Source of the DNA: Planctomycetia bacterium
GTDB taxonomy: Bacteria; Planctomycetota; Planctomycetia; Gemmatales; HRBIN36
NCBI GenBank assembly: GCA_016795155.1
Contig: JAEUIE010000048.1
Location: 1-32,901, forward strand
Reading direction: 5' to 3'
Length of the DNA: 32,901 nucleotides
Part shown: positions 1 to 11,369 of the stretch, piece after piece
How the letters are laid out: each line of letters begins with the position of its first letter
Numbering within the stretch: the first letter of the stretch is position 1
Made by a program: the position numbers and the translations under genes
The notes under the pieces: generated by a model
Told to the model about the DNA's origin: nothing
Databases searched by the model: none
Seen by the model: only the letters and a program-made list of their open reading frames with translations

Positions 1-1
1 C

Positions 2-334
2 GTGATGGCGATCCTGAGCCGTGAAGGTCAGACTTATGCCAGGATGCAATTCTCGGCAGGTCCCGGTGGCCATTGTCGCTTGCGCTGGCGAGTTGACTGG
101 GAGTCCTGGCCACGTGAGCTTACTAACAACGTGCTGACCGAATTCCGAGATGCCTGGCAACAGGAGTATCGACAAAATGTTTTACCGCAAACCTTACACC
201 ATTTTGGAATTCATCCAACCCACACTCAACCAGAACTTCTCAATCCAACTCCCCAGATATCGGATCTGGATACCTGGGATGAATCGTTCTGGACTTCCTT
301 AGGAGATACGCTTAATGAACACATCATTCCCTGA
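2..334 (+). CDS. Unidentified protein, possibly 5'-truncated, upstream of ThiF-like gene
   Basis: An open frame runs from the window edge to TGA at 332-334. GTG at 2 and ATG at 5 could be internal, so the true start may lie outside. The 110 visible residues are rich in Trp, Gln and His, with no signal peptide or membrane segment; I do not recognise a family. The stop overlaps the start of the ThiF-like gene (315) by 20 bases in another frame, which suggests translational coupling and a shared operon. In PRTRC-type cassettes, E1-like genes sit with E2-like and JAB-like partners. This could be the C-terminus of such a partner, but nothing in the visible sequence proves it. Confidence 0.6.
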   Translation: MMAILSREGQTYARMQFSAGPGGHCRLRWRVDWESWPRELTNNVLTEFRDAWQQEYRQNVLPQTLHHFGIHPTHTQPELLNPTPQISDLDTWDESFWTSLGDTLNEHIIP

Positions 335-995
335 TCGGGATATTCGGCAACGCGGCTTGGTTCCTGCTGACAAGTTATCCAGACTCCATTTACTGGTGAT
401 CGGCGTCGGGGCGATTGGTCGACAAGTTGCACTGCAACTTGCGACTCTTGGCGTGCAAAGAATGACCCTGGTGGATCACGATCATGTTGCTGAGGAGAAC
501 CTGGCTGTCCAGGGGTACAGGCCAGATGATCTGGGACATACCAAGGTCCAGGCCACAAGCACGCTTTGTCTGCAAATCCTACCGTCACTTCAAATGACGA
601 TGCTAACTGAACGATTTCGACGCCAACCCGGTTGGTCTGCGGATTCCGACAGGATCCCAGTAATTATGGTGTGTGTAGACAGCATCACGACAAGGAGAAT
701 CATTTGGGAAACATTAAAAGGACGTTTCGCACTTCTTGTCGACGGACGCATGCAGGCAGAGGTCATGCGTGTTCTGGCACAGGATGAACGGACGAATCCG
801 CAGCATTATCAGAACTCGCTTTTTAGCGAATCTGAAGCTCAGAGCGGCCCCTGCACTGCTCGCTCGACTATCTACACCGCTTCAATCGCCGCTGGCTTGA
901 TGATCGCCCAGTTGGTTCGATGGCTTCGGCAAGTACCCTTGATCCCCGATCAAACTCTTAACCTGTTGAGTGGTGAACTGATCATTAACGAGTAG
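315..995 (+). CDS. ThiF/HesA/MoeB-family E1-like adenylyltransferase
   Basis: The 226-residue product has the E1-like Rossmann ATP-binding fold near its N-terminus: VIGVGAIG (residues about 29-36), a following Arg-containing helix, the acidic LVDHDHV strand end, then EENLAVQGY and a conserved Lys in LGHTKVQA. A later PCTARSTIYTASIAAGL segment matches the C-terminal helix region of ThiF proteins and carries a Cys. Family knowledge: these enzymes adenylate the C-terminus of a ubiquitin-like or sulfur-carrier protein. It lacks the long C-terminal domains of MoeB or UBA-type enzymes and resembles the short ThiF members of mobile PRTRC-type cassettes. The start overlaps the preceding gene by 20 bases. 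A strong terminator at 1025-1052 ends the unit. The substrate is unknown. Confidence 0.85.
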   Translation: MNTSFPDRDIRQRGLVPADKLSRLHLLVIGVGAIGRQVALQLATLGVQRMTLVDHDHVAEENLAVQGYRPDDLGHTKVQATSTLCLQILPSLQMTMLTERFRRQPGWSADSDRIPVIMVCVDSITTRRIIWETLKGRFALLVDGRMQAEVMRVLAQDERTNPQHYQNSLFSESEAQSGPCTARSTIYTASIAAGLMIAQLVRWLRQVPLIPDQTLNLLSGELIINE

Positions 996-1024
996 TTCGT
1001 TACTACCCAGCGTAACACCCCATC

Positions 1025-1052
1025 CCTGCCTGGAATACCAGGCAGGTTTTTT
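1025..1052 (+). terminator. Intrinsic terminator after ThiF-like gene
   Basis: A perfect 9-bp stem, CCTGCCTGG / CCAGGCAGG, closes a four-base AATA loop and is followed directly by six T. It lies 29 bases after the ThiF-like stop codon and just ahead of the ribosome binding site of the next gene, so it separates the two transcription units. Confidence 0.9.
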
Positions 1053-1070
1053 CATTTCTGGAGGAGAAAC

Positions 1071-1790
1071 GTGTTAACACGTGGCAATCGTAAATTAGGA
1101 CTGAAACACATCTGGGGATTTACCCTCCCCTCGGGTACGGATGCAGTCTGCCCGGGTCGCACCTCCATCTGCGCCCGATCTTGTTACGCTTTGCGCCTGG
1201 AAAAGTTGCGTCCCAAAGTTCACAAGGCCTATCAACGTAACCTGGTGATGACCAAACGCCGAGATTTTGCTCAGCGAATGTATTACTTTGTCCGGGCCAT
1301 GCGGATAAGGACTGTACGCATCCATATCGGCGGAGATTTCTTTTCGGAGGAGTACGCCCGAAAGTGGCTCCAAGTTATTGAGAAGTCACCTCGAACCCAT
1401 TTCTACTTCTACACCCGATCCTGGCGTATTTCACCAATTTGCGTCGTATTGGAAGAAATGGCTTCTCTGCCCAATTGTTCAGCTTGGTACTCCTGTGACA
1501 GCGAGACGGGGTTGCCAGCCAATGTGCCGCCACGGGTTCGACTCGCCTGGCTGCAGCTAGATCCTCTCGAGCAGATCAATTCCCCAGTGCATCTGATCTT
1601 TCGAGATTATCCACTGCGCAAGCATCCAGTTACACATTCTTCAGATGCGCATATTTGCCCAGAACAAGATGGACTGAGGCGGAAGCAACGAATCACAAGT
1701 GAATCATGCCAGTTCTGTTTCATGCCTAGAGTAAGTAGCCATTCCAAGCGAGTACCATTAGGCATGCTGAATGATTCGGGTAAATTGTAA
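1071..1790 (+). CDS. Phage gp88-like cysteine-rich protein
   Basis: The GTG start is chosen because GGAGGAG (1060-1066) lies four to five bases upstream. The 239-residue protein has an N-terminal cysteine cluster, C27-x6-C34-x3-C38 within VCPGRTSICARSCYA, a middle VRIHIGGDFFSEEYARKW segment followed by an FYFYTRSW motif, and a C-terminal pair CQFC with an earlier HIC. This pattern matches, from memory, the mycobacteriophage 'gene product 88' family, found in phages and mobile elements, whose biochemical role is not established. The cysteines suggest a metal or iron-sulfur site, but the spacing is not the canonical radical-SAM CxxxCxxC. It stands alone between a terminator and a palindrome at 1799. 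Confidence 0.75.
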   Translation: MLTRGNRKLGLKHIWGFTLPSGTDAVCPGRTSICARSCYALRLEKLRPKVHKAYQRNLVMTKRRDFAQRMYYFVRAMRIRTVRIHIGGDFFSEEYARKWLQVIEKSPRTHFYFYTRSWRISPICVVLEEMASLPNCSAWYSCDSETGLPANVPPRVRLAWLQLDPLEQINSPVHLIFRDYPLRKHPVTHSSDAHICPEQDGLRRKQRITSESCQFCFMPRVSSHSKRVPLGMLNDSGKL

Positions 1791-1798
1791 TTCTTGTC

Positions 1799-1812
1799 CG
1801 GCGGCGCCGCCG
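1799..1812. repeat. GC palindrome copy 1
   Basis: A perfect 14-base palindrome, CGGCGGCGCCGCCG, lies 8 bases after the gp88-like stop. The same core with longer symmetrical flanks recurs at 4905-4924 and 7182-7199. Its function is unknown. Confidence 0.85.
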
Positions 1813-1947
1813 AAAACTTCACGCGATCTGCCTGTATCGACTGTCGGTACCTGATTACATCTTCATTCAAAACACAAATGAATTCTGGCTGCGATGTAAC
1901 CATTGCACCGCTGTTTCATTTATCTCGTTACCATTTAGGAGAACACG

Positions 1948-2121
1948 ATGCCCGCGAGGCAAAAGTTAAATGCTGTATCACTCTACCTCTGCCTGATTGT
2001 GGGTGCGATTGCAGCCCTGGTTTCTGGGTCTGGATCCGTATTCTGGATAGTTTCCGGGATACTGGTCATGATTGCCCTGCATTCTGGGGCGTTTCGCCCT
2101 ACAAGTGGGAAAAGGCAGTAA
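1948..2121 (+). CDS. Small two-helix membrane protein, 57 residues
   Basis: ATG at 1948 is preceded by TAGGAGA (1936-1942) at proper spacing, and the frame closes with TAA at 2119-2121. The product starts MPARQKLNAVSLY and contains two hydrophobic stretches, roughly residues 9-29 and 32-47, separated by a short Gly/Ser turn, with a basic C-terminus (RPTSGKRQ). That fits a small inner-membrane hairpin protein. No family is recognised. A stem-loop follows 7 bases after the stop. The good ribosome binding site, hydrophobic pattern and trailing hairpin support it as a real gene despite its size; its role in the element is unknown. Confidence 0.65.
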   Translation: MPARQKLNAVSLYLCLIVGAIAALVSGSGSVFWIVSGILVMIALHSGAFRPTSGKRQ

Positions 2122-2128
2122 CCCCACC

Positions 2129-2157
2129 AGCCACCTCGTACCTATTGCGAGGTGGCT
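2129..2157 (+). terminator. Stem-loop after small membrane protein gene
   Basis: AGCCACCTCG and CGAGGTGGCT form a perfect 10-bp stem with a 9-base loop, starting 7 bases after the stop at 2121. No T run follows directly (a run of seven T begins about 26 bases later), so it is a probable but not textbook terminator. Confidence 0.6.
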
Positions 2158-2218
2158 TGAACTTTGGCCTAATCAAGACTCTATTTTTTTAGCCATTCTC
2201 CGACAGCTTCAACCATTC

Positions 2219-3133
2219 TTAGTTTTGCAAGGTTGAATCTGCAAATACGCGGTTAAATGGCTTCCCATGTCGAGTAGTTTTTACTCGTGATCGAGCGAGC
2301 TTTGATCGCATAGAGTTCGTTATCTTTTGCGCTAGCTGGTTCTTTCGTTCCAGCATTACTTGGATGGTTACCAGAGATTTGAGACCTCGCTCGTATCGAA
2401 CCTGGGCGGAGTCATATTGTTTTTCGAGATGGCGGATTAAAGAAAAGTTTGTTTTCTGTTTTACTGATGCTTCGGTGTATAACATTTCAGCTAGATAAAC
2501 TTGTAGCCAGAGAATGGAAAGCCTCTCGGCATGTGCCACTTCCAAAGCACTTCCTCCCCCTTTCCACTCGTTTTTCAGTTTTTTTAGTTTCCGTTTCAGC
2601 GATACCTTCTGTTTGACATTATCACCCAAGTAGGCTGTTAGAAGATGGTCGATCGATTTCTGAAACATGTCTCCATGGAGATCCCAGAGATCAGCTTCCT
2701 TCTCCATCATTTGCTCAAGCTCATCTTCACTAACACTTGCATTCTGCGTTGTGCTGGCCTCCTGTTCTTTAGTTTTCGGATGTTCGTTAGTTGGATTCGG
2801 TGATGGAGTCGCGTTCATAGCTTCCTTCCCTGGACGTTTGAGTCGCCAACTACTCCCATGCAGATGGAAACCTGCATTGTTCAGAGTCAACATAGTAAGC
2901 GTTGACAGGCACTTGTCCCATAACATGGAAGTTAATTCAAGATGTTCGTGATACTGCTGCAGTTTCTTCATTTCATACCTCGAACGAACTCTCTCCTGCC
3001 TATTCACTTTTACTTCTAGTTCAGCCAACGCCGCAAGATAACCATTACCATAATATTCACGCACCACACGGCCATGAACACGTCGGCTGCGTGTGTAATA
3101 CTCTCTCCCACCCTTGCGCTTTTCCCACGCCAT
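2219..3133 (-). CDS. Planctomycete-type hypothetical protein (MAWEKRKGG family)
   Basis: I place the start at the ATG at 3133 (MAWEKRKGGREYYTRSRR); an upstream in-frame GTG at 3148 is less likely. The N-terminus, with its basic 'KRKGGRYYTRSRRVxGRVVREY' pattern, is one I associate with a recurring planctomycete accessory protein of unknown function. A low-complexity linker (about residues 105-135, rich in Pro, Thr, Glu and Gln) follows, then a long highly charged alpha-helical and probably coiled-coil region, and a basic tail. There is no signal peptide or membrane segment. The basic N-terminus could bind nucleic acid, but this is inference. The AT-rich gap 3134-3451 separates it from the divergent DUF1580-like gene. 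Confidence 0.75.
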   Translation of the reverse strand: MAWEKRKGGREYYTRSRRVHGRVVREYYGNGYLAALAELEVKVNRQERVRSRYEMKKLQQYHEHLELTSMLWDKCLSTLTMLTLNNAGFHLHGSSWRLKRPGKEAMNATPSPNPTNEHPKTKEQEASTTQNASVSEDELEQMMEKEADLWDLHGDMFQKSIDHLLTAYLGDNVKQKVSLKRKLKKLKNEWKGGGSALEVAHAERLSILWLQVYLAEMLYTEASVKQKTNFSLIRHLEKQYDSAQVRYERGLKSLVTIQVMLERKNQLAQKITNSMRSKLARSRVKTTRHGKPFNRVFADSTLQN

Positions 3134-3451
3134 GTTTTGGCTACCCACTTGTGTTACATTTTTTCAGAAATACCGCTTACTATATCTAACAGTTCTACTG
3201 TTCTGATCAATCGTATTTCCAGGCATTTCCGCAACAATTTTCGATATTATACACCACTCGAATCATCATTTATTCATAATTGAATCGTATGTAAACTGTC
3301 TTATTCTGTCTCATTCATAGCTATTCTGTCTGGATCTAAATTCTTATTCATCAGCAACCTGTCTTGTTGGTAGTTATAATCAGATGTATATTCATACGTG
3401 ATATGGCGGGGACATACTTTGCCAATCATTTCTCGGATGGGGGGAAGACAA
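3134..3451. promoter_or_regulatory. AT-rich divergent intergenic region
   Basis: This 318-base AT-rich gap lies between divergent genes and should hold both promoters. ATTCTGTCT occurs as a direct repeat at 3303 and 3323, a possible regulator site. A TATAAT occurs at 3375-3380, without a convincing -35 at standard spacing. No gene is visible. Confidence 0.35.
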
Positions 3452-3775
3452 ATGATTGACATCGATAAAGAAAAATTGATTCCTATTCGTAAATCAGGTA
3501 AATTGTTTCCTGGCAATCCTCATGCATCAACCGTTTATCGGTGGATCAAAGCGGGAATGAACGGGTGCTTTCTGGAGACCAGCATGGTTGGGGGGAGGAG
3601 ATTCACTTCCCAGGAAGCCGTTAAGCGCTTCATAGTAAAACTGACCCAGAAAGCCGATGGCCGTTATAATCGTGAATTCGAGTTTTCAAAGGAAGAACTG
3701 GAGCAAATGGGTTCACCACGGGATGACAATCTTTGGTCTGGCAACTTTGGCGAAATCGAATTACCTATTGAATAA
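3452..3775 (+). CDS. DUF1580-like small DNA-binding protein
   Basis: The ATG at 3452 is chosen because a run of G followed by AAG (3439-3446) provides a strong ribosome binding site about six bases upstream. The 107-residue product contains LIPIRKSGKLFPGNPHASTV, then YRWIKAGMNG, GGRRFTSQEA and a basic stretch, the order of a winged-helix excisionase-like fold: helix-turn-helix ('pick a row, pick a wing') and then a wing. This matches my memory of DUF1580, a family common in planctomycete mobile elements. The acidic C-terminal tail (EFSKEELEQMG onward) is less conserved. It may act as an excisionase or a regulator of the element; that is inference. Its 3' end overlaps the convergent gene at 3765. 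Confidence 0.75.
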   Translation: MIDIDKEKLIPIRKSGKLFPGNPHASTVYRWIKAGMNGCFLETSMVGGRRFTSQEAVKRFIVKLTQKADGRYNREFEFSKEELEQMGSPRDDNLWSGNFGEIELPIE

Positions 3776-4112
3776 TCAAGCGATCTATCAAGGAAGGGGC
3801 AATTCTTGGCACCGACGAAATGTGATACCAGGTTTGCCCCCTTCGGCGAAAACCATATCGGGAGGCTCTTTGCTCAAGAAATGTTAAGGCAAATTGTTGT
3901 AACGCCTCATCAGTTTGGAGTATTTTATCGGTGAGTGCCTGTAATTCCTGTAGATTATGAGTTATTTCAGCTTCCTTCTCCTTGATCCGCTTCCTTAGAT
4001 ATTTCTTCTGCTGACTGATAAATTTTTCCTCCTCACGGCTACTCATTTCATCTAACTGCTGACTAAAGCATAATTCTTTTTCTTGTTCCTTATCCCGATT
4101 CTTCCTAGGCAT
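3765..4112 (-). CDS. Small charged coiled-coil protein, unknown
   Basis: The start is placed at the ATG at 4112 (MPRKNRDKEQEKE) because GGAGGA lies about seven bases before it; the in-frame ATG at 4124 overlaps that site. The 115-residue product is dominated by Lys/Glu/Gln helices (KKYLRKRIKEKEAEITHNLQ, continuing to about residue 70) typical of a coiled coil, followed by a basic C-terminus (RYGFRRRGQTWYHI). The C-terminal part resembles small planctomycete proteins encoded beside DUF1580-like genes, but I cannot name a family. It converges on the DUF1580-like gene with an 11-base overlap at their ends. Confidence 0.6.
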   Translation of the reverse strand: MPRKNRDKEQEKELCFSQQLDEMSSREEEKFISQQKKYLRKRIKEKEAEITHNLQELQALTDKILQTDEALQQFALTFLEQRASRYGFRRRGQTWYHISSVPRIAPSLIDRLIIQ

Positions 4113-4222
4113 GACATCCTCCATATATGCGTTTCTTGTTCATCATTACACTACACATGTGTACCACAATCGATTTGTGTATCCAATACCAACAAGTCAG
4201 ACACGTTACTGAACTATTTCAG

Positions 4223-4257
4223 CCGAAGTGGCACAGATGTAAGTGAGAGGAGTCGGT
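4223..4257 (+). repeat. Imperfect direct repeat, copy A
   Basis: The segment around AGTGGCACAGATGTAAGTGA resembles copy B at 4953-4990 (AGTGGCACAGGTGGTAAGTT) over about 36 bases, including a shared GAGTCGG near the end. The copies precede the IS5 remnant and the IS3 orfA respectively, so this may be a shared IS leader or terminus. Confidence 0.5.
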
Positions 4258-4291
4258 AACAGGCAGCCAGCAAAAGAAGAACGAGTGATGC

Positions 4292-4813
4292 AAGAAGAAT
4301 GTCTGGCAGTTCATCCAAGAAGTGGTTCAGGATCCCTTACACGATTGATACTTGACAGCACTATCGTGCAGGCCCACAGCACGGTGCGGGTATGAACGGT
4401 AGAGAAGATGACCAGGTGTTGGGACGATCCCATTGTGGATTTGGGATAAAATTCCACTCATCCTCATATGGATTGAGTCAGCTATGACGAATGTCTCCGT
4501 CCCGGGCAGGACATCAATCTTACCGTGGAATTGATGAGTGTCCCTCCGTTGAAAGAAGGCATCGCGACAAAGGATACGGCAGCAACGGGCTAGTGGAAAT
4601 GTTCGAATTATGTGGCGCATGCGATCATCCGCCACGATTCAACCACTAAACACCAGGGACTAGGACCAGCATTGCTACTAATGGAGACGGAACATCGTAA
4701 ACAATGTGTCTATCACTGAAACAATGCTGACATGTGGCGATCCGATAAGAGAAGACAACTCGACCTTTCACTGCATGGTGCTCTACGCCGCGATCACCTA
4801 TTGGCACAAGTGA
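4292..4813 (+). pseudogene. Decayed IS5-family transposase
   Basis: Reading the plus strand across frames recovers the IS5-type DDE transposase in the correct order. First comes NVWQFIQEVVQDPLHD (from about 4298), then DSTIVQAHST (4354 on, matching the DSTIVRAH first-Asp motif), LGRS..GFGIKFH (about 4417), a degenerate PGQ-like segment, DKGYGSNGLVEMFE (about 4570), PPRFNH (matching 'IPPRSNR'), and a C-terminal TFHCMVLYAAITYWHK ending at TGA 4813. Many stops and frameshifts interrupt it, so it is an old, inactive remnant. In its time it would have catalysed cut-and-paste transposition. A reverse-strand open frame here is a shadow. Confidence 0.75.
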
Positions 4814-4904
4814 TTCCCAGATTGCCTACCTCAGTGGCATGAATCAATAAGGTCTAACTAACCATTCCGAGTGTGCCATAGTGGTTGAGAAGCCTGATGT
4901 TGAA

Positions 4905-4924
4905 TTCCGGCGGCGCCGCCGGAA
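4905..4924. repeat. GC palindrome copy 2, longest form
   Basis: TTCCGGCGGCGCCGCCGGAA is a perfect 20-base palindrome. It lies between the IS5 remnant and the IS3 element and shares its 14-base core with 1799-1812 and 7184-7197. Confidence 0.9.
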
Positions 4925-4952
4925 CTGAGTTAGTGATTCTGTAATGTTTTAC

Positions 4953-4990
4953 CCGCAGTGGCACAGGTGGTAAGTTAGAGGGAGTCGGGT
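4953..4990 (+). repeat. Imperfect direct repeat, copy B
   Basis: This is the counterpart of copy A at 4223-4257, with AGTGGCACAG, TAAGT and GAGTCGG in common. It lies about 30 bases upstream of the IS3 orfA start and could be part of the left terminus or leader of the element. Confidence 0.5.
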
Positions 4991-5020
4991 CTGGTTGCCA
5001 TTGAAGAATCATGAGACTCC

Positions 5021-5311
5021 ATGAGTGAGCGTAAAGAGCGTCGGCATTGGTTGCCGTCGGAGAAGTTGCGGATTGTGCTGGCGGGATTGGATCGAGGGAC
5101 GAATCTGTCGGAGCTGTGCCGTCAGGAAGGGATTAACATCACCCAGTATTACCAATGGAAGAAGCAGTTGCAGTCGTCGGCGCAGGAGATCTTCTCCCGG
5201 CAGACGACCAGTAAAGAAGAGCAGCTGTCGGCGGAGGTGCAGCGGTTGCGTAATGTGATCGCGGAGATCACGACGGAAAATTTGGAGATAAAAAAGGGGC
5301 GCTGGGTTTAG
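5021..5311 (+). CDS. IS3-family transposase OrfA
   Basis: The 96-residue product has the usual OrfA layout. An N-terminal helix-turn-helix (WLPSEKLRIVLAGLDRGTNL, then SELCRQEGINITQYYQWKKQ, residues about 10-50) recognises the IS ends. It is followed by a leucine-zipper-like helix, LSAEVQRLRNVIAEITTENLEI, used for multimerisation. In intact IS3 elements a -1 frameshift fuses OrfA to OrfB; here the frame ends at KKGRWV just as the orfB remnant begins, close to the A-rich stretch at 5289-5294 where slippage would occur. OrfA is intact but cannot transpose without an active OrfB. Confidence 0.88.
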   Translation: MSERKERRHWLPSEKLRIVLAGLDRGTNLSELCRQEGINITQYYQWKKQLQSSAQEIFSRQTTSKEEQLSAEVQRLRNVIAEITTENLEIKKGRWV

Positions 5312-5690
5312 AGGACTACGGCCAGTTGCCGGTGGAGCTTCAGGAGCGAGTGCATCAGGAGGTGCTCAAGACAAAGGCACGAAGCAGCTGGCCGGTGAAG
5401 AAGACGTTGCTGGCGTTGGGGATACCGTGATGAGCGAGGGGAATTGCAGGCCAGGCCGGAGATTCGGTCGGACAATGGAAGCGGGTATCTATCGAAAGAG
5501 TTCCGCCAGGTGCTGGAGGAGAATCGGCTGAGCCATGTGAAGATCAAGGCGAGCTGCCCGGAGGAGAATGGCTTGATGGAGCGGAGCAACCGTATAGTGT
5601 GAGAAGCCTGGGAGCAGGAGATACCTCCGGAGGATGTGGAGTCGGCGTTGGACTACTACCGAGGCAACCCGGAAGCCTTGAATGAGGAGA
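5298..5690 (+). pseudogene. IS3-family transposase OrfB remnant, internally deleted
   Basis: The first part reads VHQEVLKTKARSSWPVKKTL and LALGIP (to about 5428), the N-terminal helical region of OrfB. It jumps directly to RPEIRSDNGSGYLSKEF (from about 5455), then HVKIKASCPEENGLMERSNR, and an EDVESALDYYRGNPEALNEE-type C-terminus to about 5690. The second catalytic Asp (SDNG) and the Glu of the NGLMER motif are present. The first catalytic Asp and roughly 120-150 residues are missing, and stops occur at 5428-5430 and after RSNRIV. The remnant is inactive. Confidence 0.75.
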
Positions 5691-6095
5691 GTCGTGTGAG
5701 GAGAACTCGCGTGCGAAGGTGATTTCCTCGGTAGCTATGGTGCTCACAACAAACTGCGGATAATCGTGCTTTTCCGAGATCTCTTTGCAAGCTCGCCGAC
5801 CATGCTTCAAGAACTTCGAGGCTCAAGCTCGATGAGTTGGTTCCAGATTTCCCTGACATCAGTTTGGAAATCATCAATCCTATCAGTTGAGATTTTATCT
5901 CAATTTTGAGATTTACTCGCCTGGTCGCGTAAATCTTAGTTTTGAATCGAGAGTATCATCTTCCTCGAAGGAAGAGCAAGACCCTCGGGATGTGGTTGGT
6001 TTGTTTTATTTGACAGGATCTATGACCTCGATGGATCTTTTCCCTCGGGGGGTGATTTGGATCAATTTGGCGCGATTTTTTATCAATCAAAATAT
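5691..6095. other. No convincing gene; AT-rich part near Rep-like gene
   Basis: Between the IS3 remnant and the hairpin at 6096 I see no supported gene. A minus-strand segment (about 5870 to 5700) reads as broken protein-like pieces in changing frames, for example KEISEKHDYPQFVVSTIATE, and could be a decayed gene; I cannot name it. From 5885 TGAGATTT occurs twice (5885, 5905) around a small CTCAATTTTGAG palindrome. Together with the stem-loops at 6096 and 6184 this may be part of an origin for the Rep-like protein, which is inference only. Confidence 0.3.
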
Positions 6096-6120
6096 CACGC
6101 CCCGCGCTTCGCGGGGCGTG
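6096..6120 (+). terminator. Perfect 10-bp GC hairpin with T tract
   Basis: CACGCCCCGC and GCGGGGCGTG pair perfectly around a five-base GCTTC loop and are followed by AATTTTTT. It has the form of a strong intrinsic terminator, yet no gene clearly ends just upstream. It lies about 190 bases before the Rep-like gene, so it may instead be an origin hairpin or insulate that gene from upstream transcription. Confidence 0.65.
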
Positions 6121-6183
6121 AATTTTTTGGTGGTATTAAATAAGACATTAAGACTTAAAGAACTAAAAAGAACTAACCCCTGA

Positions 6184-6206
6184 AGTATTGACCGTAGGTC
6201 AATACT
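6184..6206. repeat. Perfect inverted repeat upstream of Rep-like gene
   Basis: AGTATTGACC, a GTA spacer and GGTCAATACT form a perfect 10-bp inverted repeat with a 3-base loop, 107 bases before the Rep-like start. It could be an operator, or the stem of a nicking site for a rolling-circle initiator. No T tract follows, so it is not a typical terminator. Confidence 0.75.
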
Positions 6207-6312
6207 GGTATGTTGCGCCGTAGAAGACAGCCTCTCTAATAACTAAATTAAGTCTTTGTAAATAAACAACTTACGCGACATCTAACACTTCACCGTTGAA
6301 ACTGGAGATTTC

Positions 6313-7449
6313 ATGACTTATAGGACTCTCTACCATCCACGAAGACCGTACGTATGGTTCTCCATCGGTTCGTCCTGGAGACCGTGTTTGAGACAAAAAA
6401 TCAATCCCAAGGTCGACTATGTCGGGAAGCCGTACGACGACAAATCAGCAACGCTCGGGCTGTCCGAGGCGTTCCGAAAAATCGAAAACCGCAGCTTTAC
6501 TATGTACTCTAAAATTAATGCCTACGCTCAAAAGATAAAAAGCGTGTTATCAGAACATGTTCTGAGAAAGGTATCCCGTCTGCATCATTGCCCGCCCAAT
6601 GGTGGTTACCGATCTTACTCGGATATGGGTCGCCATCCGTGCGGATCTGCGTTGCTGTGTCCTTACTGCTGGGTTCGAAGAGTATCCTGGCCGTTGATGC
6701 GAGGGATCATGACTGGAATTGCCAACTATTCAAAAATTACCAGGATTGCCAAGCACTATAAGGCAGGCCGTATTGTTCGGTTCGGTGTCGTGGTGAAAGT
6801 TGCCACCTGCCACGCACGGCCGGCTGATGTTCTCAAATACATGTCATCAGTGCTGGGGCGTATGGTGAAGTTCTTGAAGAGATTGAAGGGTCACCAACGT
6901 CCGCCCGGGATACGCGGTGCAGTCATGACTTCCACATTGCGATACGGTAATGATGGATTCTGGCACATCAGGTTTCGAGGTGTCGGCATCCAGGACTTCG
7001 AAGGTAATAAATACACTCCCTATAACGTCAACAGCGCGCTGCTGCTGTCTGCGAGGCATACCTGCGGGAAAGTGATTCCAAGGCCCGTCGACAAATTCTG
7101 CCATCAGGTTGATGTGGAAAGAAAGACAGTCAATCGCACTTTCCTGAAAGCGGTGGCGTGGGCTGCCAGGTTTCAGGACATTTCGGCGGCGCCGCCGAAC
7201 GTCCTGCTCTCCATACTTCGACGCAAGACGAAGTATCGTCTGACCAGACGATTTGGAGTCTGTCATCGAAGATTCAATAAGATCAACCCTAATCTCAAGG
7301 CCCTCAAACAGGCCTTCGAGATGGAAGCAGAGTACAGGAAATTCGTGGAGAATCTGACTCATGAACAGAGCGTTTGTAGTGCTGAGGCAGGGGCACCGGC
7401 CGATTGTGCTACAGGAGAAGAGCAAGGCTCAAGAGAAGAGCAAGGCTAA
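6313..7449 (+). CDS. Rolling-circle Rep-like protein, HUH motif degenerate
   Basis: ATG 6313 has GGAGA a few bases upstream. In this 378-residue protein, C110-x5-C116-x2-C119 followed by Arg-Arg (CGSALLCPYCWVRR) is the zinc-like motif preceding the nuclease domain in plasmid and phage rolling-circle initiators ('CPxCxxRR'). A beta strand IVRFGVVVKVA (about 154-164), a helix, and RGAVMTSTLRYGNDGFWHIR then fit the order of motifs I and II. However, the HUH site reads H218-I-R220 and not H-x-H. FLKAVAWAARFQ (about 277-288) sits where the catalytic Tyr helix is expected but lacks a Tyr. It may be a diverged or inactivated initiator, or a relative with another role. The C-terminus carries an 18-base tandem repeat. 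The GC palindrome at 7182 lies inside the coding sequence (Ala-Ala-Pro-Pro). Confidence 0.55.
   Translation: MTYRTLYHPRRPYVWFSIGSSWRPCLRQKINPKVDYVGKPYDDKSATLGLSEAFRKIENRSFTMYSKINAYAQKIKSVLSEHVLRKVSRLHHCPPNGGYRSYSDMGRHPCGSALLCPYCWVRRVSWPLMRGIMTGIANYSKITRIAKHYKAGRIVRFGVVVKVATCHARPADVLKYMSSVLGRMVKFLKRLKGHQRPPGIRGAVMTSTLRYGNDGFWHIRFRGVGIQDFEGNKYTPYNVNSALLLSARHTCGKVIPRPVDKFCHQVDVERKTVNRTFLKAVAWAARFQDISAAPPNVLLSILRRKTKYRLTRRFGVCHRRFNKINPNLKALKQAFEMEAEYRKFVENLTHEQSVCSAEAGAPADCATGEEQGSREEQG
7182..7199. repeat. GC palindrome copy 3, inside the Rep-like gene
   Basis: TTCGGCGGCGCCGCCGAA is a perfect 18-base palindrome within the Rep-like coding sequence, where it encodes an Ala-Ala-Pro-Pro stretch. It shares the 14-base core with 1799-1812 and 4908-4921. 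Confidence 0.9.
7415..7447 (+). repeat. 18-base-period tandem duplication at the end of the Rep-like gene
   Basis: GAGAAGAGCAAGGCT occurs at 7415-7429 and again at 7433-7447, a period of 18 bases. It gives the repeated EEQGSREEQG at the C-terminus, directly before the stop at 7447-7449. Confidence 0.85.
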
Positions 7450-7524
7450 GGAAGTGTAAAAAGACGAACTTCATACAACCCGTGCATTTGTCGCAAACTT
7501 CTAGACTTAAACTTCCGGTATTTC

Positions 7525-9108
7525 TCAGGCTGATCCTACAAAATATTTGCCATAAAGATAATCAGTTACAGCTTTAGGTACTATTGTCTGCCTGACATAA
7601 TGCTTTCTAGCAATTTCATTTGGAGTGTGCCCCAACCAAAGTTGTGCGGTTGATAAATCAAACTTCTCTGTTATCAGAGTTGCACCAGTCTTTCTGAAAT
7701 GACGAGGGCTCAATGAGATGTTGCTTCCATTGATCGTCCGACGCCAATATTGGTAAACGAGATCTTTGTTGACAATTTGATCCCCACGCATGCATTTCTC
7801 ATAGAGTTTAGCGCCAGTTTCACTCAGCAAAAGATGCAAATTGTCATTACATGCGGCTTCTTTTAGGCAGTCTAAGGTTTGCGGCCATAGATGATGGGTA
7901 ACAGTAAAGCCTTTGCCAGCCTTTTTCATTTTCGATCGACGTCTGGTGATGGTGCCTTTTTGGAAATCTACTTGGTTCTTCTCGATATCCGAAACATCTG
8001 CCTGTGTCATTCCACAATTCAGCATGAGCAGGAAGCAAGCCTTGTAGATTGGGTGTTTTACCTGTAACAGTATTTTGGAAATCTCAGCTGGCTCGAAGAC
8101 CTTTGGATCGCCACAACTAGTATCGAATCTAAACTCTTTGCTTTTCATTTTCCTGGGCAAATGGTCTATGTGCTCGTTGTTGTATGCCCAATGCAAAAGA
8201 GCGAGTCCAAACTGGAATACCTTCTTGGCATAGATTCCTGACCATCCTTCCTTTTTTGATTTTAACCTCTCCACCTCCTTCGACTTGCAGAAGTCATACC
8301 ATTGCTTGACTTTGGACTGAGGGAAATGTTCAAGGTTAGTCTCTTCACCAAAGACTTCTTTGAATAGCTGCATCGTGCGACTGAGATTATTGAAATCAGT
8401 AGTTGATTGGCCAAGTTTGAGGCAGTTTGATTTCTTTTCTTTGAGAAATTGATCCGCTAGATAACCGAGAGACTTGGATCGTGGCGTGACTTCAATGAGT
8501 TTTTCGAGGGTTTTCATGTCAACCGAATAGCCGAGCCTTTCTTTACCGTGTTTGTCCGTGAATGCCCTGTCTAGGTTCTGCTGTAAGATACCTCGGATGC
8601 ACTCTTTAATGCCCACAGTTTCAGCTTCCGGGAGGCGTCCCCTATGAGCAATGAGTTCAATCGTTTTCAGATAGGACATCATTACTGCAGGAAGGGAGTT
8701 ATCCCACGAACTATTCCCGCGACTAAGTCTGTATTCTTCATAACAATCATCAACCAACTTTGGTGAAACAATAGGTTTGGCTGGTCTGTTCTTCAACTTA
8801 TTAATGTGATCTTGAGCACGCATTGCCTCATCTATCAAGCCGGCGGAGTGAAGCAGTGCTAATTCGCGACGAGTAGCATTGACGGAATCTGCGTGCGGAA
8901 GCTGGTCCTCTTTAACTTGAGCCAAGCGCATTTTTATATCTTGGAAATGTTTATTTGCCAAAGGATAGGAATCAGATTGAGTCCATAAGGTGTTATCCTT
9001 CAATCCAAGATCTGAGCACTTTACACGATATCGTGTCCCTTCAATCATCTTGGTCCATCGATAGTGTGGAGCACCTTCCCAGGAGCCTGCTTTTCTGTAT
9101 CGTTTCAT
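7525..9108 (-). CDS. Tyrosine recombinase (integrase) of planctomycete type
   Basis: The 527-residue protein, larger than most integrases, has a long N-terminal DNA-binding part and a C-terminal catalytic domain. There I find RRRSKMKKAG (beta-hairpin Lys region), SPRHFRKTGAT aligning with box II (Arg472; the usual first His appears as Arg469), WLGH (His494), and HYV with the likely nucleophile Tyr504. The box I segment reads LNCGMTQADVSDIEKN, with Thr-Gln where the first catalytic Arg normally lies, a variant I recall from other planctomycete integrases ('NCGxxQxDIADL'). It starts about 150 bases from the tRNA fragment at 9260 and reads away from it, as expected for an integrase beside its attachment site. 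It should catalyse integration and excision of the element. Confidence 0.85.
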   Translation of the reverse strand: MKRYRKAGSWEGAPHYRWTKMIEGTRYRVKCSDLGLKDNTLWTQSDSYPLANKHFQDIKMRLAQVKEDQLPHADSVNATRRELALLHSAGLIDEAMRAQDHINKLKNRPAKPIVSPKLVDDCYEEYRLSRGNSSWDNSLPAVMMSYLKTIELIAHRGRLPEAETVGIKECIRGILQQNLDRAFTDKHGKERLGYSVDMKTLEKLIEVTPRSKSLGYLADQFLKEKKSNCLKLGQSTTDFNNLSRTMQLFKEVFGEETNLEHFPQSKVKQWYDFCKSKEVERLKSKKEGWSGIYAKKVFQFGLALLHWAYNNEHIDHLPRKMKSKEFRFDTSCGDPKVFEPAEISKILLQVKHPIYKACFLLMLNCGMTQADVSDIEKNQVDFQKGTITRRRSKMKKAGKGFTVTHHLWPQTLDCLKEAACNDNLHLLLSETGAKLYEKCMRGDQIVNKDLVYQYWRRTINGSNISLSPRHFRKTGATLITEKFDLSTAQLWLGHTPNEIARKHYVRQTIVPKAVTDYLYGKYFVGSA

Positions 9109-9169
9109 GAGTGTTCCATGCTCTCGACAGGAGGGTGAGTTAGTGATGCCAATGCGACTTGGAAAAAAT

Positions 9170-9218
9170 GGGGTAAATCATGTGGGGTAAAATGCTGTTA
9201 TAGGTATCAATTTACCCC
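9170..9218. promoter_or_regulatory. GGGGTAAA repeats between integrase and attachment site
   Basis: GGGGTAAAT (9170-9178), GGGGTAAAA (9184-9192) and the inverted ATTTACCCC (9210-9218) lie in the 150 bases between the integrase start and the tRNA fragment. Two direct copies plus one inverted copy so close to the crossover site suggest recombinase arm sites, excisionase sites, or an operator controlling the integrase gene. Confidence 0.55.
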
Positions 9219-9259
9219 AAAGACATGCAAAAATCCGCTTAAAATTTACACTTTTGCGA

Positions 9260-9301
9260 TTCCTAAACCGTAGGTCACAGGTTCAAATCCTGTCGGGAGT
9301 A
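9260..9301 (+). other. Attachment site: displaced 3' half of tRNA-Arg(CCT)
   Basis: The sequence folds as the 3' half of a tRNA: anticodon loop TTCCTAA (9260-9266, anticodon CCT), 3' anticodon stem ACCGT (9267-9271), variable loop AGGTC, T stem and loop ACAGG-TTCAAAT-CCTGT (9277-9293), acceptor 3' strand CGGGAGT (9294-9300) and discriminator A. CCA is not encoded. The bases before 9260 do not pair with the anticodon stem and no 5' half exists upstream. The tRNA sequence therefore stops exactly at the anticodon loop, a known crossover point for tyrosine recombinases. I read this as the attachment junction on the integrase side. Confidence 0.82.
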
Positions 9302-9314
9302 ATTGAGAAAATCC

Positions 9315-11369
9315 ATGATTCGAACAGTTTGTTGCCTGCTGTTATGCTGTCCGCTGCTCCAGGCTCAAACCGTCAAGACCAGTGATTATCGAGCAGGCTG
9401 GGTCACGCTGCCCAAGCCCCCTGCACTGGTTTATCATTCGCATGTTGGCAGCAATCCGCAACCTCCAGCAGTGTACGAATGGGCCTATTCCCTGGTGGAT
9501 GACACAGGCAGAATCAGCCCGATGTCGCCTTCCGTCAAAATCAACGCACCACGCAATTACACCATCAGCGTCAAACTGCAGGATGGCATGTTCACACGGG
9601 CCTGCGCCTACGTCCTGTGGTCGCGGCGGGTAGGTGGCAGTTCACCACTGGGGCCAGCAGGAAATGGCGAACTCGAATGGCGGTCCAACGGCGCCAATAA
9701 AGCTCAACAACCTCGACCGTTTCTTGCCTTGACGGGGTTACCCGATCATAGCTTGCGTGCTCGAGCCATCCAGCCAACCATCCGCTGGTATGCGGGCAAT
9801 TTCAGCGAGCGATTCGAAGATGAAACGTTTTTCCCACGATCAACCGTCTTGGCAGCGCCGGACCATCCACCTCTGATCACCGTTTACCACATCCCCAACA
9901 GGGCATACGAAGTCTGCTACACCTGGGTAGGCAATGAGGGAGAGTCTCCTCTTTCGGATGTGATTACGGTTCTCCCCAATTCAGAAAGCGAGGATTTCAA
10001 CAACCCTTTCTGGCTTCAACGACCTGGTTGCCCGCCACAAGGAGCACTCGGATTTTACCTTTACCTCAGAGTAAAAGGAGAATCCAACTGGCATCGGCAG
10101 CCCAGAAGACACGTTGACAAGTATTCCACTCGTGATGATTTTCTCTGGGGACTCACCCAGATCAAAGTGTCAGTTGATCGCTTTGTTGAGAGTAAGCAGT
10201 CACCTGCCACCCGACAGGGACGCTCCTGGCTTACCAGTCTGCAGCAGGCCATCGAGCAAACCAATCAAAGCATCCTGGTGGATTCTCCTCAGGAGCTGCG
10301 TTGCCCGGTGATCATGCCATTTCGGGCCGGCCAGTCGATGCGACGCACCATCTCAGCCTTGAATGGTGCATCCTGGGATCTGACTACGGTCAAGCCCTCA
10401 CCGGGCACTGCCCTGCCCTATCCCACCGAATGGCCGATGTGGGTTGAGACATCGCAATACACCCGGCTGGTAGGATGCAACATGGAATCCTCCACGGCGG
10501 AATGCGGCATTGATTTCCTGAGTTACGATGGCTCCACCTGCTTTCACTTCCGTGCTGAGCGATGCTCGATCAAACTGTGGCGATCATTGATAGGCAGAAA
10601 GTATAGTGCAGCCATCAGGCAACTGGCCCATTTTGAAGGGGCACATACCTGCAGCGAACCAATCTTCATCGATTGCGACGTCTGGGCCAGGCATGGTGTG
10701 GTGTGTGAAGGAGGCCAGTCAGCCAACTGGGAAGTGAGGTCAATGAACGCAGTCTCCGCTGGCGGACTGGAATCGTCCATCCTGAGCATTAACAATTCCG
10801 GTTCATTTTTAGTCAGTGGCCGCATTACGACCGATGGTGCACGAGCGTTTATTGCTGCGGTAAACATTCGGCAGGTTACGGTAGAAAACTGGTATTCTGA
10901 TCGAGGTTTTCCATGCTGGGTTTGCTTCAGCACTCCCAATACTGCAACCACTCTTAATATCACTGTAAACCAGATTAACCACTGGCCTTCCAGTGATGGC
11001 GCGCAGGGCGATTGGGATTGGTTGCATGTTGCGGAAATGGCCCAAGCCGGCGAACACATTGCCAAGCTGAGAATCACAGGACTGGCTGCCAACCATTACC
11101 GAGCAGATAGCCGTGGACAACCCTTCGAAGGTGGCGCTCCCCGGTGCCGGATTTTCTGTCCTCGTTATGCAGGACTTGATTACCGCCTGCCCAATAATTC
11201 ACTGCTCAGCCAACTCAAGGTGCACGAAGAATCACGTCAGTGGTGGAACACGCATGGCACCGAGTTTCAATATCCCATCGTGGGCATGGTCTGGCACAGT
11301 TACCAGAGCCAGTGGGATCACGGGAAGGATGCAGCCCAACGCAGACCCGAAATCAAAACGCGCGACTAA
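9315..11369 (+). CDS. Large secreted protein, probably beta-helix type
   Basis: I prefer ATG 9315 (MIRTVCCLLLCCPLLQAQ, a clear signal peptide ending at Ala-Gln) over the in-frame TTG at 9303, which sits against the tRNA end. The mature protein of about 665 residues has an N-terminal half with fibronectin-like features (AVYEWAYSLVDDTGRISPMS; YEVCYTWVGNEGESPLSD) and a C-terminal half of short beta-strand repeats with Asn, Gly and Cys (PIFIDCDVWARHGVVCEGGQ), suggesting a right-handed beta-helix. No catalytic motif is evident. It begins only 13 bases after the attachment site, so integration has probably cut it off from its original upstream sequence. It converges on the bestrophin-like gene with a 4-base overlap. 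Confidence 0.75.
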   Translation: MIRTVCCLLLCCPLLQAQTVKTSDYRAGWVTLPKPPALVYHSHVGSNPQPPAVYEWAYSLVDDTGRISPMSPSVKINAPRNYTISVKLQDGMFTRACAYVLWSRRVGGSSPLGPAGNGELEWRSNGANKAQQPRPFLALTGLPDHSLRARAIQPTIRWYAGNFSERFEDETFFPRSTVLAAPDHPPLITVYHIPNRAYEVCYTWVGNEGESPLSDVITVLPNSESEDFNNPFWLQRPGCPPQGALGFYLYLRVKGESNWHRQPRRHVDKYSTRDDFLWGLTQIKVSVDRFVESKQSPATRQGRSWLTSLQQAIEQTNQSILVDSPQELRCPVIMPFRAGQSMRRTISALNGASWDLTTVKPSPGTALPYPTEWPMWVETSQYTRLVGCNMESSTAECGIDFLSYDGSTCFHFRAERCSIKLWRSLIGRKYSAAIRQLAHFEGAHTCSEPIFIDCDVWARHGVVCEGGQSANWEVRSMNAVSAGGLESSILSINNSGSFLVSGRITTDGARAFIAAVNIRQVTVENWYSDRGFPCWVCFSTPNTATTLNITVNQINHWPSSDGAQGDWDWLHVAEMAQAGEHIAKLRITGLAANHYRADSRGQPFEGGAPRCRIFCPRYAGLDYRLPNNSLLSQLKVHEESRQWWNTHGTEFQYPIVGMVWHSYQSQWDHGKDAAQRRPEIKTRD

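Follow-up and report, generated by a model that had tools for sequence, protein, structure and literature searches.

A displaced tRNA-Arg(CCT) 3' half very probably marks the right end of an integrative element in a planctomycete draft genome

The window, as we call the whole 32,901-nucleotide stretch of planctomycete DNA analysed here, carries at positions 9260-9301 (+ strand) a 42-bp tRNA-Arg(CCT) 3' half that we read, with a probability of roughly 95%, as the attR of an integrative element inserted in the host tRNA-Arg(CCT) gene, with attL at C13:577-650 on another contig of the same genome. The fragment reads TTCCTAAACCGTAGGTCACAGGTTCAAATCCTGTCGGGAGTA and corresponds to tRNA positions 32-73, opening with the 7-nt anticodon loop (TTCCTAA) and closing with the discriminator A. 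ARAGORN and Rfam, run on the window, called no tRNA at 9260-9301 because the 5' half is absent.

We searched the 5.28-Mb genome with mismatches allowed and found a second copy of the 42-mer at C13:578-619 (-), identical at 42 of 42 positions; these two copies are the only ones in the assembly. On C13 the block is part of an intact tRNA-Arg(CCT) gene (G000:C13:577-650, - strand), in which it occupies positions 32-73. The match between the two copies stops exactly at the limits of the 42-bp block on either side, and the expectation for an exact 42-mer by chance is ~5e-19. An earlier note on this DNA had described a tRNA 3' half complete from the anticodon loop to the discriminator base, lacking its 5' half and broken exactly at the anticodon loop; the limits of the identity, which begins at the first base of the loop, bear out both points. 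The integrase start that it saw 150 bases away belongs to a tyrosine integrase ORF at 7525-9108 (-), 151 bp from the fragment. The note had also taken everything left of the boundary to be a mobile element whose other end and intact tRNA gene lie outside the window. The intact tRNA-Arg(CCT) gene that it proposed to look for is the one at C13:577-650, with its 3' end toward the contig end, and this gene and the arm repeats found at both junctions support that placement.

The arrangement was compared with what Islander uses to recognize tRNA-gene islands. The same genome holds an intact tDNA and an identical end fragment (42/42 bp), an integrase gene lies in the interval 151 bp inside attR, and the end fragment is a 3' fragment on the correct side and in the same orientation, the polarity of both contig ends fitting insertion in the anticodon loop. 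Contig C13 terminates 577 bp downstream of the intact gene, whose 3' end therefore faces missing sequence, and the window contig starts 9.26 kb upstream of the fragment. The draft has 68 contigs, and the two sites are on separate ones; the middle of the element was not found, so that their linkage is one that we infer. In three relatives (G049, G034 and L137) one replicon has both ends, at a distance within 2-200 kb.

We propose that the attP of the element carried its own tRNA 3' half, from the anticodon loop to the discriminator base, with TGGGGTAAA arm repeats flanking it. The integrase encoded at 7525-9108 would have crossed over within the 7-bp anticodon loop (9260-9266, +), where the shared identity begins and where the predicted cleavage positions would fall. 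The chromosomal 5' half and its promoter would have joined the element's 3' half to give the intact gene at C13:577-650 (attL), and the original chromosomal 3' half, thereby displaced, would have come to lie at 9260-9301 (attR), next to the integrase gene. We further infer the continued mobility of the element and the identity and length of its unassembled middle.

The integrase (527 aa) matches PF00589 (E 1.6e-10) and a PHROG integrase, and its AlphaFold model aligns with archaeal Xer, Tn1549 Int, lambda Int and Cre with Z up to 16.9. Confidence in the model is moderate (pLDDT 70.6, falling below 50 at residues 486-507 around the Tyr), and we therefore read it for the fold and not for the place of R391 in the active site. 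The Tyr, ArgII, Lys and second His/Trp of tyrosine recombinases are present (K393, R472, the His of WLGH and Y504), and Thr occupies the position of the canonical box I Arg. Arg is found at this position in 0 of 61 aligned full-length family members; R-x-K (R391 and K393 in the window integrase) is present in all 61, and the nucleophile position holds Tyr in every family sequence aligned there. R391 may stand in for the missing ArgI. The substitute Arg of IntCTnDOT probably also lies two positions before the catalytic Lys. No relatives of the integrase were found in IMG/VR or among phages or plasmids, and no description of the family was found in the literature within reach of the search, most subscription papers lying beyond it.

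Lacking a canonical ArgI, the integrase could be less active, and the element might even be a dead relic, its integrase inactive and its att site a fossil. The absence of ArgI from 61 of 61 aligned family members favours this reading, as does an IS3-type transposase fragment inside the element part (5021-5311, +; PF01527 and NF033516). However, the integrase ORF is intact, the R-x-K and the Tyr are conserved as described above, and the att duplications are perfect in most mapped family members. Moreover, a survey records that the CTnDOT integrase lacks this Arg, which is functionally replaced by an Arg further downstream (PMC8138268). With such exceptions known, a missing ArgI marks a variant of the tyrosine recombinases and not an exclusion from them, and we regard a dead relic as unlikely.

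The two junctions share the arm-type repeat TGGGGTAAA. On the window side, two direct copies lie at 9169-9177 and 9183-9191 (+) and one inverted copy (TTTACCCCA) at 9211-9219 (-), which, taken in order from the far end toward the core, places them at 92, 78 and 48 bp; the C13 side has four direct copies. The word TGGGGTA occurs three times (window) and four times (C13) in the 150-bp element-side arms, and none of 2000 dinucleotide shuffles reached three shared copies. GGGGTAA was found nowhere else in the window or in the 37.7 kb of C13. The core is thus flanked on either side by several arm sites, as expected for lambda-type heterobivalent integrases, and the window-side layout recurs in relatives; the N-terminal domain of the integrase is predicted to bind these candidate repeats. 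Since both junctions carry one repeat word, they most likely belong to one attP.

The shared word also bears on the possibility that two or more elements sit in tandem at one tRNA gene, with C13 holding the attL of one and the window the attR of another. Tandem islands are known (Islander, PMC4383910), and ends on separate contigs with the middle missing leave room for such an array. Against it, even relatives mostly differ in their repeat word whereas both arms here have the same one, and a tandem would leave a third 42-mer where the assembly has two, unless the third lies in the unassembled part; we consider it quite improbable. Decay or partial deletion of a tRNA gene, unrelated to the integrase, is barely credible as the origin of the fragment: bare tRNA fragments without a nearby integrase do exist (tRNA-Arg(CCT) 5' fragments in G074, G059 and G078, with no integrase of the family in the stretches fetched), but 100% identity over exactly the block from anticodon loop to discriminator, unique in the genome and 151 bp from an integrase, together with matching arm repeats at both junctions and an equal layout in relatives, in effect refutes decay.

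With 9260-9301 read as the attR of one integrative element, the flanks can be reassembled. When the left flank on C13 is joined to the right flank in the window through the 42-bp core (attB), one ordinary tRNA-Arg gene results, and the reciprocal attP junction gives no tRNA. The mapping of attR and attL makes 1-9301 of the window, from the contig start to attR, the right-end part of the element, and its G+C is 0.473 (47%, against 51% in both flanks); the two chromosomal flanks are nearly equal, at 0.508 and 0.506. Genes for an OsmC-like protein and a class II tRNA synthetase-like protein lie in the left flank on C13. The polarity of attR suggests that the chromosomal right flank is 9302-32901, which carries genes for a bestrophin-like protein, tRNA-Glu, 2-phosphosulpholactate phosphatase and metabolic genes, among others.

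Using the 42-mer with up to two mismatches, we found no empty site in the remaining 101 genomes of the order; the exact 42-mer was absent from genome_contigs, and the gene order around tRNA-Arg(CCT) does not persist in other genera of the family. A weak beta-propeller match in G003, at a similar distance and in a similar orientation, was considered as a hint of an empty site and set aside as uninformative, the propeller family being common. The first protein of the right flank, a 688-aa ORF at 9303-11369 immediately beyond attR, has a single paralogue in this genome (on C57, 32% identical), and a search of 60 related genomes gave no relative. A consensus promoter scan of the junction gave results at chance level. 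At the other end, contig C13 has its terminal 141 bp, and no more, in common with the end of C65 (L003:1-141 and L041:1-141), within an IS remnant. Because C13 ends in this shared remnant, the sequence beyond it is uncertain, and the overlap in the assembly graph may hide the next piece of the element. C65 itself, which carries kinase and sigma-factor-like genes, was not assigned as the missing middle; it may share the IS remnant only.

We then compared the window with relatives of the integrase drawn from 61 related genomes, GTDB contigs (33 loci) and 392 genomes of the phylum. Most have a tRNA or a tRNA 3' half within ~200 bp of the integrase start, in one of three configurations: (i) a bare 3' half pointing away from the integrase gene, as in the window; (ii) an intact tRNA pointing away from it (21 loci with this geometry, nine of them mapped at both ends); or (iii) an intact tRNA whose 3' end faces it (seven loci). 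At one type (iii) locus, G034:C8, no second-end repeat was found within 71 kb. The configurations are clustered on the integrase tree (17 changes versus 34.9 in shuffles), and the branch of the window integrase, though long, falls within a supported group made up mostly of type (i).

Type (i) targets include Arg, Glu, Lys, Gly, Met, Pro and Val tRNAs, named from the fragment sequence unless mapped. For three type (i) elements a single contig spans both ends: at tRNA-Gly(CCC) in G049 (43 bp, 86.8 kb), at tRNA-Gly(CCC) in G034 (48 bp, positions 26-73; 39 kb) and at tRNA-Val(GAC) in L137 (47 bp, positions 31-77; 8.8 kb). In each, the integrase gene adjoins the fragment and the intact tRNA lies at the opposite end, which is the arrangement that we propose for the element in the window. 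With that of the window, four mapped elements carried a tRNA 3' half and left the integrase gene at the displaced fragment. The integrase-side arms of these loci have a common design: in 11 of 14 type (i) loci, counted from the far end toward the core, two direct 7-mers 12-14 bp apart are followed by an inverted copy ~30-36 bp nearer the core, a layout shown by 0 of 500 shuffles per locus. The word itself differs in most of them (TGGGGTA, TGCGGCC, TGCAGGC, TGGCAAA, TTATGTA, TGAAACA and others). As a pattern of sequence, the shared layout is independent evidence that 9110-9301 has the design expected of a genuine att site.

The mapped type (ii) elements occupy Arg(TCT) and Thr tRNA genes in G014 and G048, Thr, Sec, Leu and Arg(TCT) genes in G253, G408, G392 and G206, and Ser, Arg(CCT) and Met genes in G206, G408 and G392. 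Each of these nine has duplicated the tRNA 5' half, in a block starting between ~20 bp upstream and position 2 and ending at position 37-42; seven blocks are perfect, and the other two are 97.5% and 93% identical. The 5' half therefore comes from the element, and the old 5' half is displaced along with its native upstream region, the host tRNA probably being transcribed from element DNA (sister integrase loci L101, L104, L161-L165 and L170-L172). Type (i) and type (ii) blocks overlap only around the anticodon loop. Since the integrase end is joined to the chromosomal 3' half in both types, they agree in polarity and differ only in which tRNA half attP carries. tRNA-Sec, the mapped target in G408 (L163), also adjoins an integrase gene in G056 (L023). 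Isolated tRNA-Arg(CCT) 5' halves occur at G101:C12:39827-39865, G074:C15:3402-3439, G059:C119:11243-11284 and G078:C51:291-328; they were possibly displaced by 5'-half islands, and the stretches fetched around them contain no integrase of the family.

Islander records 3919 islands, of which 3760 have a 3' fragment and 159 have a 5' fragment; sites centred on the anticodon are common (PMC4383910). Archaeal pTN3-type integrases use the tRNA 5' half, and a similar situation is described as rare in bacteria (PMC8371274). Given these records, the element in the window is of a known kind, a tRNA-gene genomic island. It resembles Islander class A (PMC4383910) in having an intact tRNA at one end, an identical 3' fragment at the other, a tyrosine integrase between them and a crossover region in the anticodon loop; unlike that class, its integrase gene lies at the fragment end instead of beside the intact tRNA, and its ends are on separate contigs. 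Like 5'-fragment islands and pTN3-type elements, the elements of the sister integrases supply positions 1 to ~40 and displace the 5' half, which is the rule in the sister branch, whereas the element in the window supplies the 3' half. The integrase shares with lambda Int the fold of the core-binding and catalytic domains and the short arm-repeat clusters on both sides of the core, but its identity to lambda Int is low, ArgI is missing, and the arm words vary between most relatives while their spacing is kept. As in IntCTnDOT, the first catalytic Arg is missing and a downstream Arg is conserved (a likeness at the level of the sequence signature); unlike IntCTnDOT-type integrases, the family has planctomycete hosts and targets tRNA anticodon loops. 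The departure from known systems is in the integrase branch, without ArgI and with R-x-K, in the integrase gene at the scrap end, and in a sister branch with 5'-half islands as the rule.

Taking these observations jointly, we give even odds to a broader reading in which a planctomycete-wide family of ArgI-less integrases recombines in the anticodon loop of many tRNA genes. Polarity would be fixed in two of the three classes, the integrase end always joining the chromosomal 3' half, and attP would carry either the 3' half (the branch of the window, with the integrase gene beside the scrap) or the 5' half (the sister branch, with the integrase gene next to the rebuilt tRNA gene). Host tRNAs of the sister branch, tRNA-Sec among them, would lose their own promoter and probably be transcribed from element DNA; the branch of the window would keep the arm layout and rewrite the recognition word between elements. 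For annotators, the analysis fixes one end of a mobile element and indicates that 1-9301 should not be treated as core chromosome. It also exposes an integrase family that has many planctomycete tRNA targets, lacks the textbook first Arg and rebuilds opposite tRNA halves in sister branches. In the 5'-half branch, displacement of the native host tRNA promoter would have an addiction-like consequence that is testable. Conserved arm spacing with changing words offers a simple signature for finding att sites, draft genomes included.

Several genes are recognizable in the visible part of the element. A JAB-like gene cut by the contig start (C-terminal part, 2-334, +) is 60% identical to the end of a 261-aa Prok-JAB protein at C53, and is followed by genes for a ThiF/E1-like protein (315-995, +; PF00899, E 1.4e-23), a GP88-family protein (1071-1790, +; PF17338, E 7.4e-35) and a DUF1580 protein (3398-3775, +; PF07618, E 1.8e-15). 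No relaxase, coupling protein or secretion genes were found in the 9.3 kb seen, most of the element possibly being missing, and this part contains no conjugation or phage structural genes. Adjoining the integrase gene, an orphan 378-aa protein with clustered cysteines (6313-7449, +) has no family match and no relatives in the order's 101 other genomes, IMG/VR or plasmids; it is possibly a replication protein of the element.

The JAB/ThiF/GP88/DUF1580 block recurs at C53 with ~50-64% protein identity. There the block (L045:9200-19998, that is, G000:C53:214-225 kb) adjoins the DISARM genes DrmA, DrmB and DrmC, and an adjacent 349-aa protein has RING-like cysteine clusters. Finally, a 14-bp palindrome, CGGCGGCGCCGCCG, lies at 1799-1812, 4908-4921 and 7184-7197 of the window. 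It occurs six times in the 5.28-Mb genome, three times in the element part, twice in or near the related C53 module and once in C39, and may be an element-specific site for partition, replication or modification.
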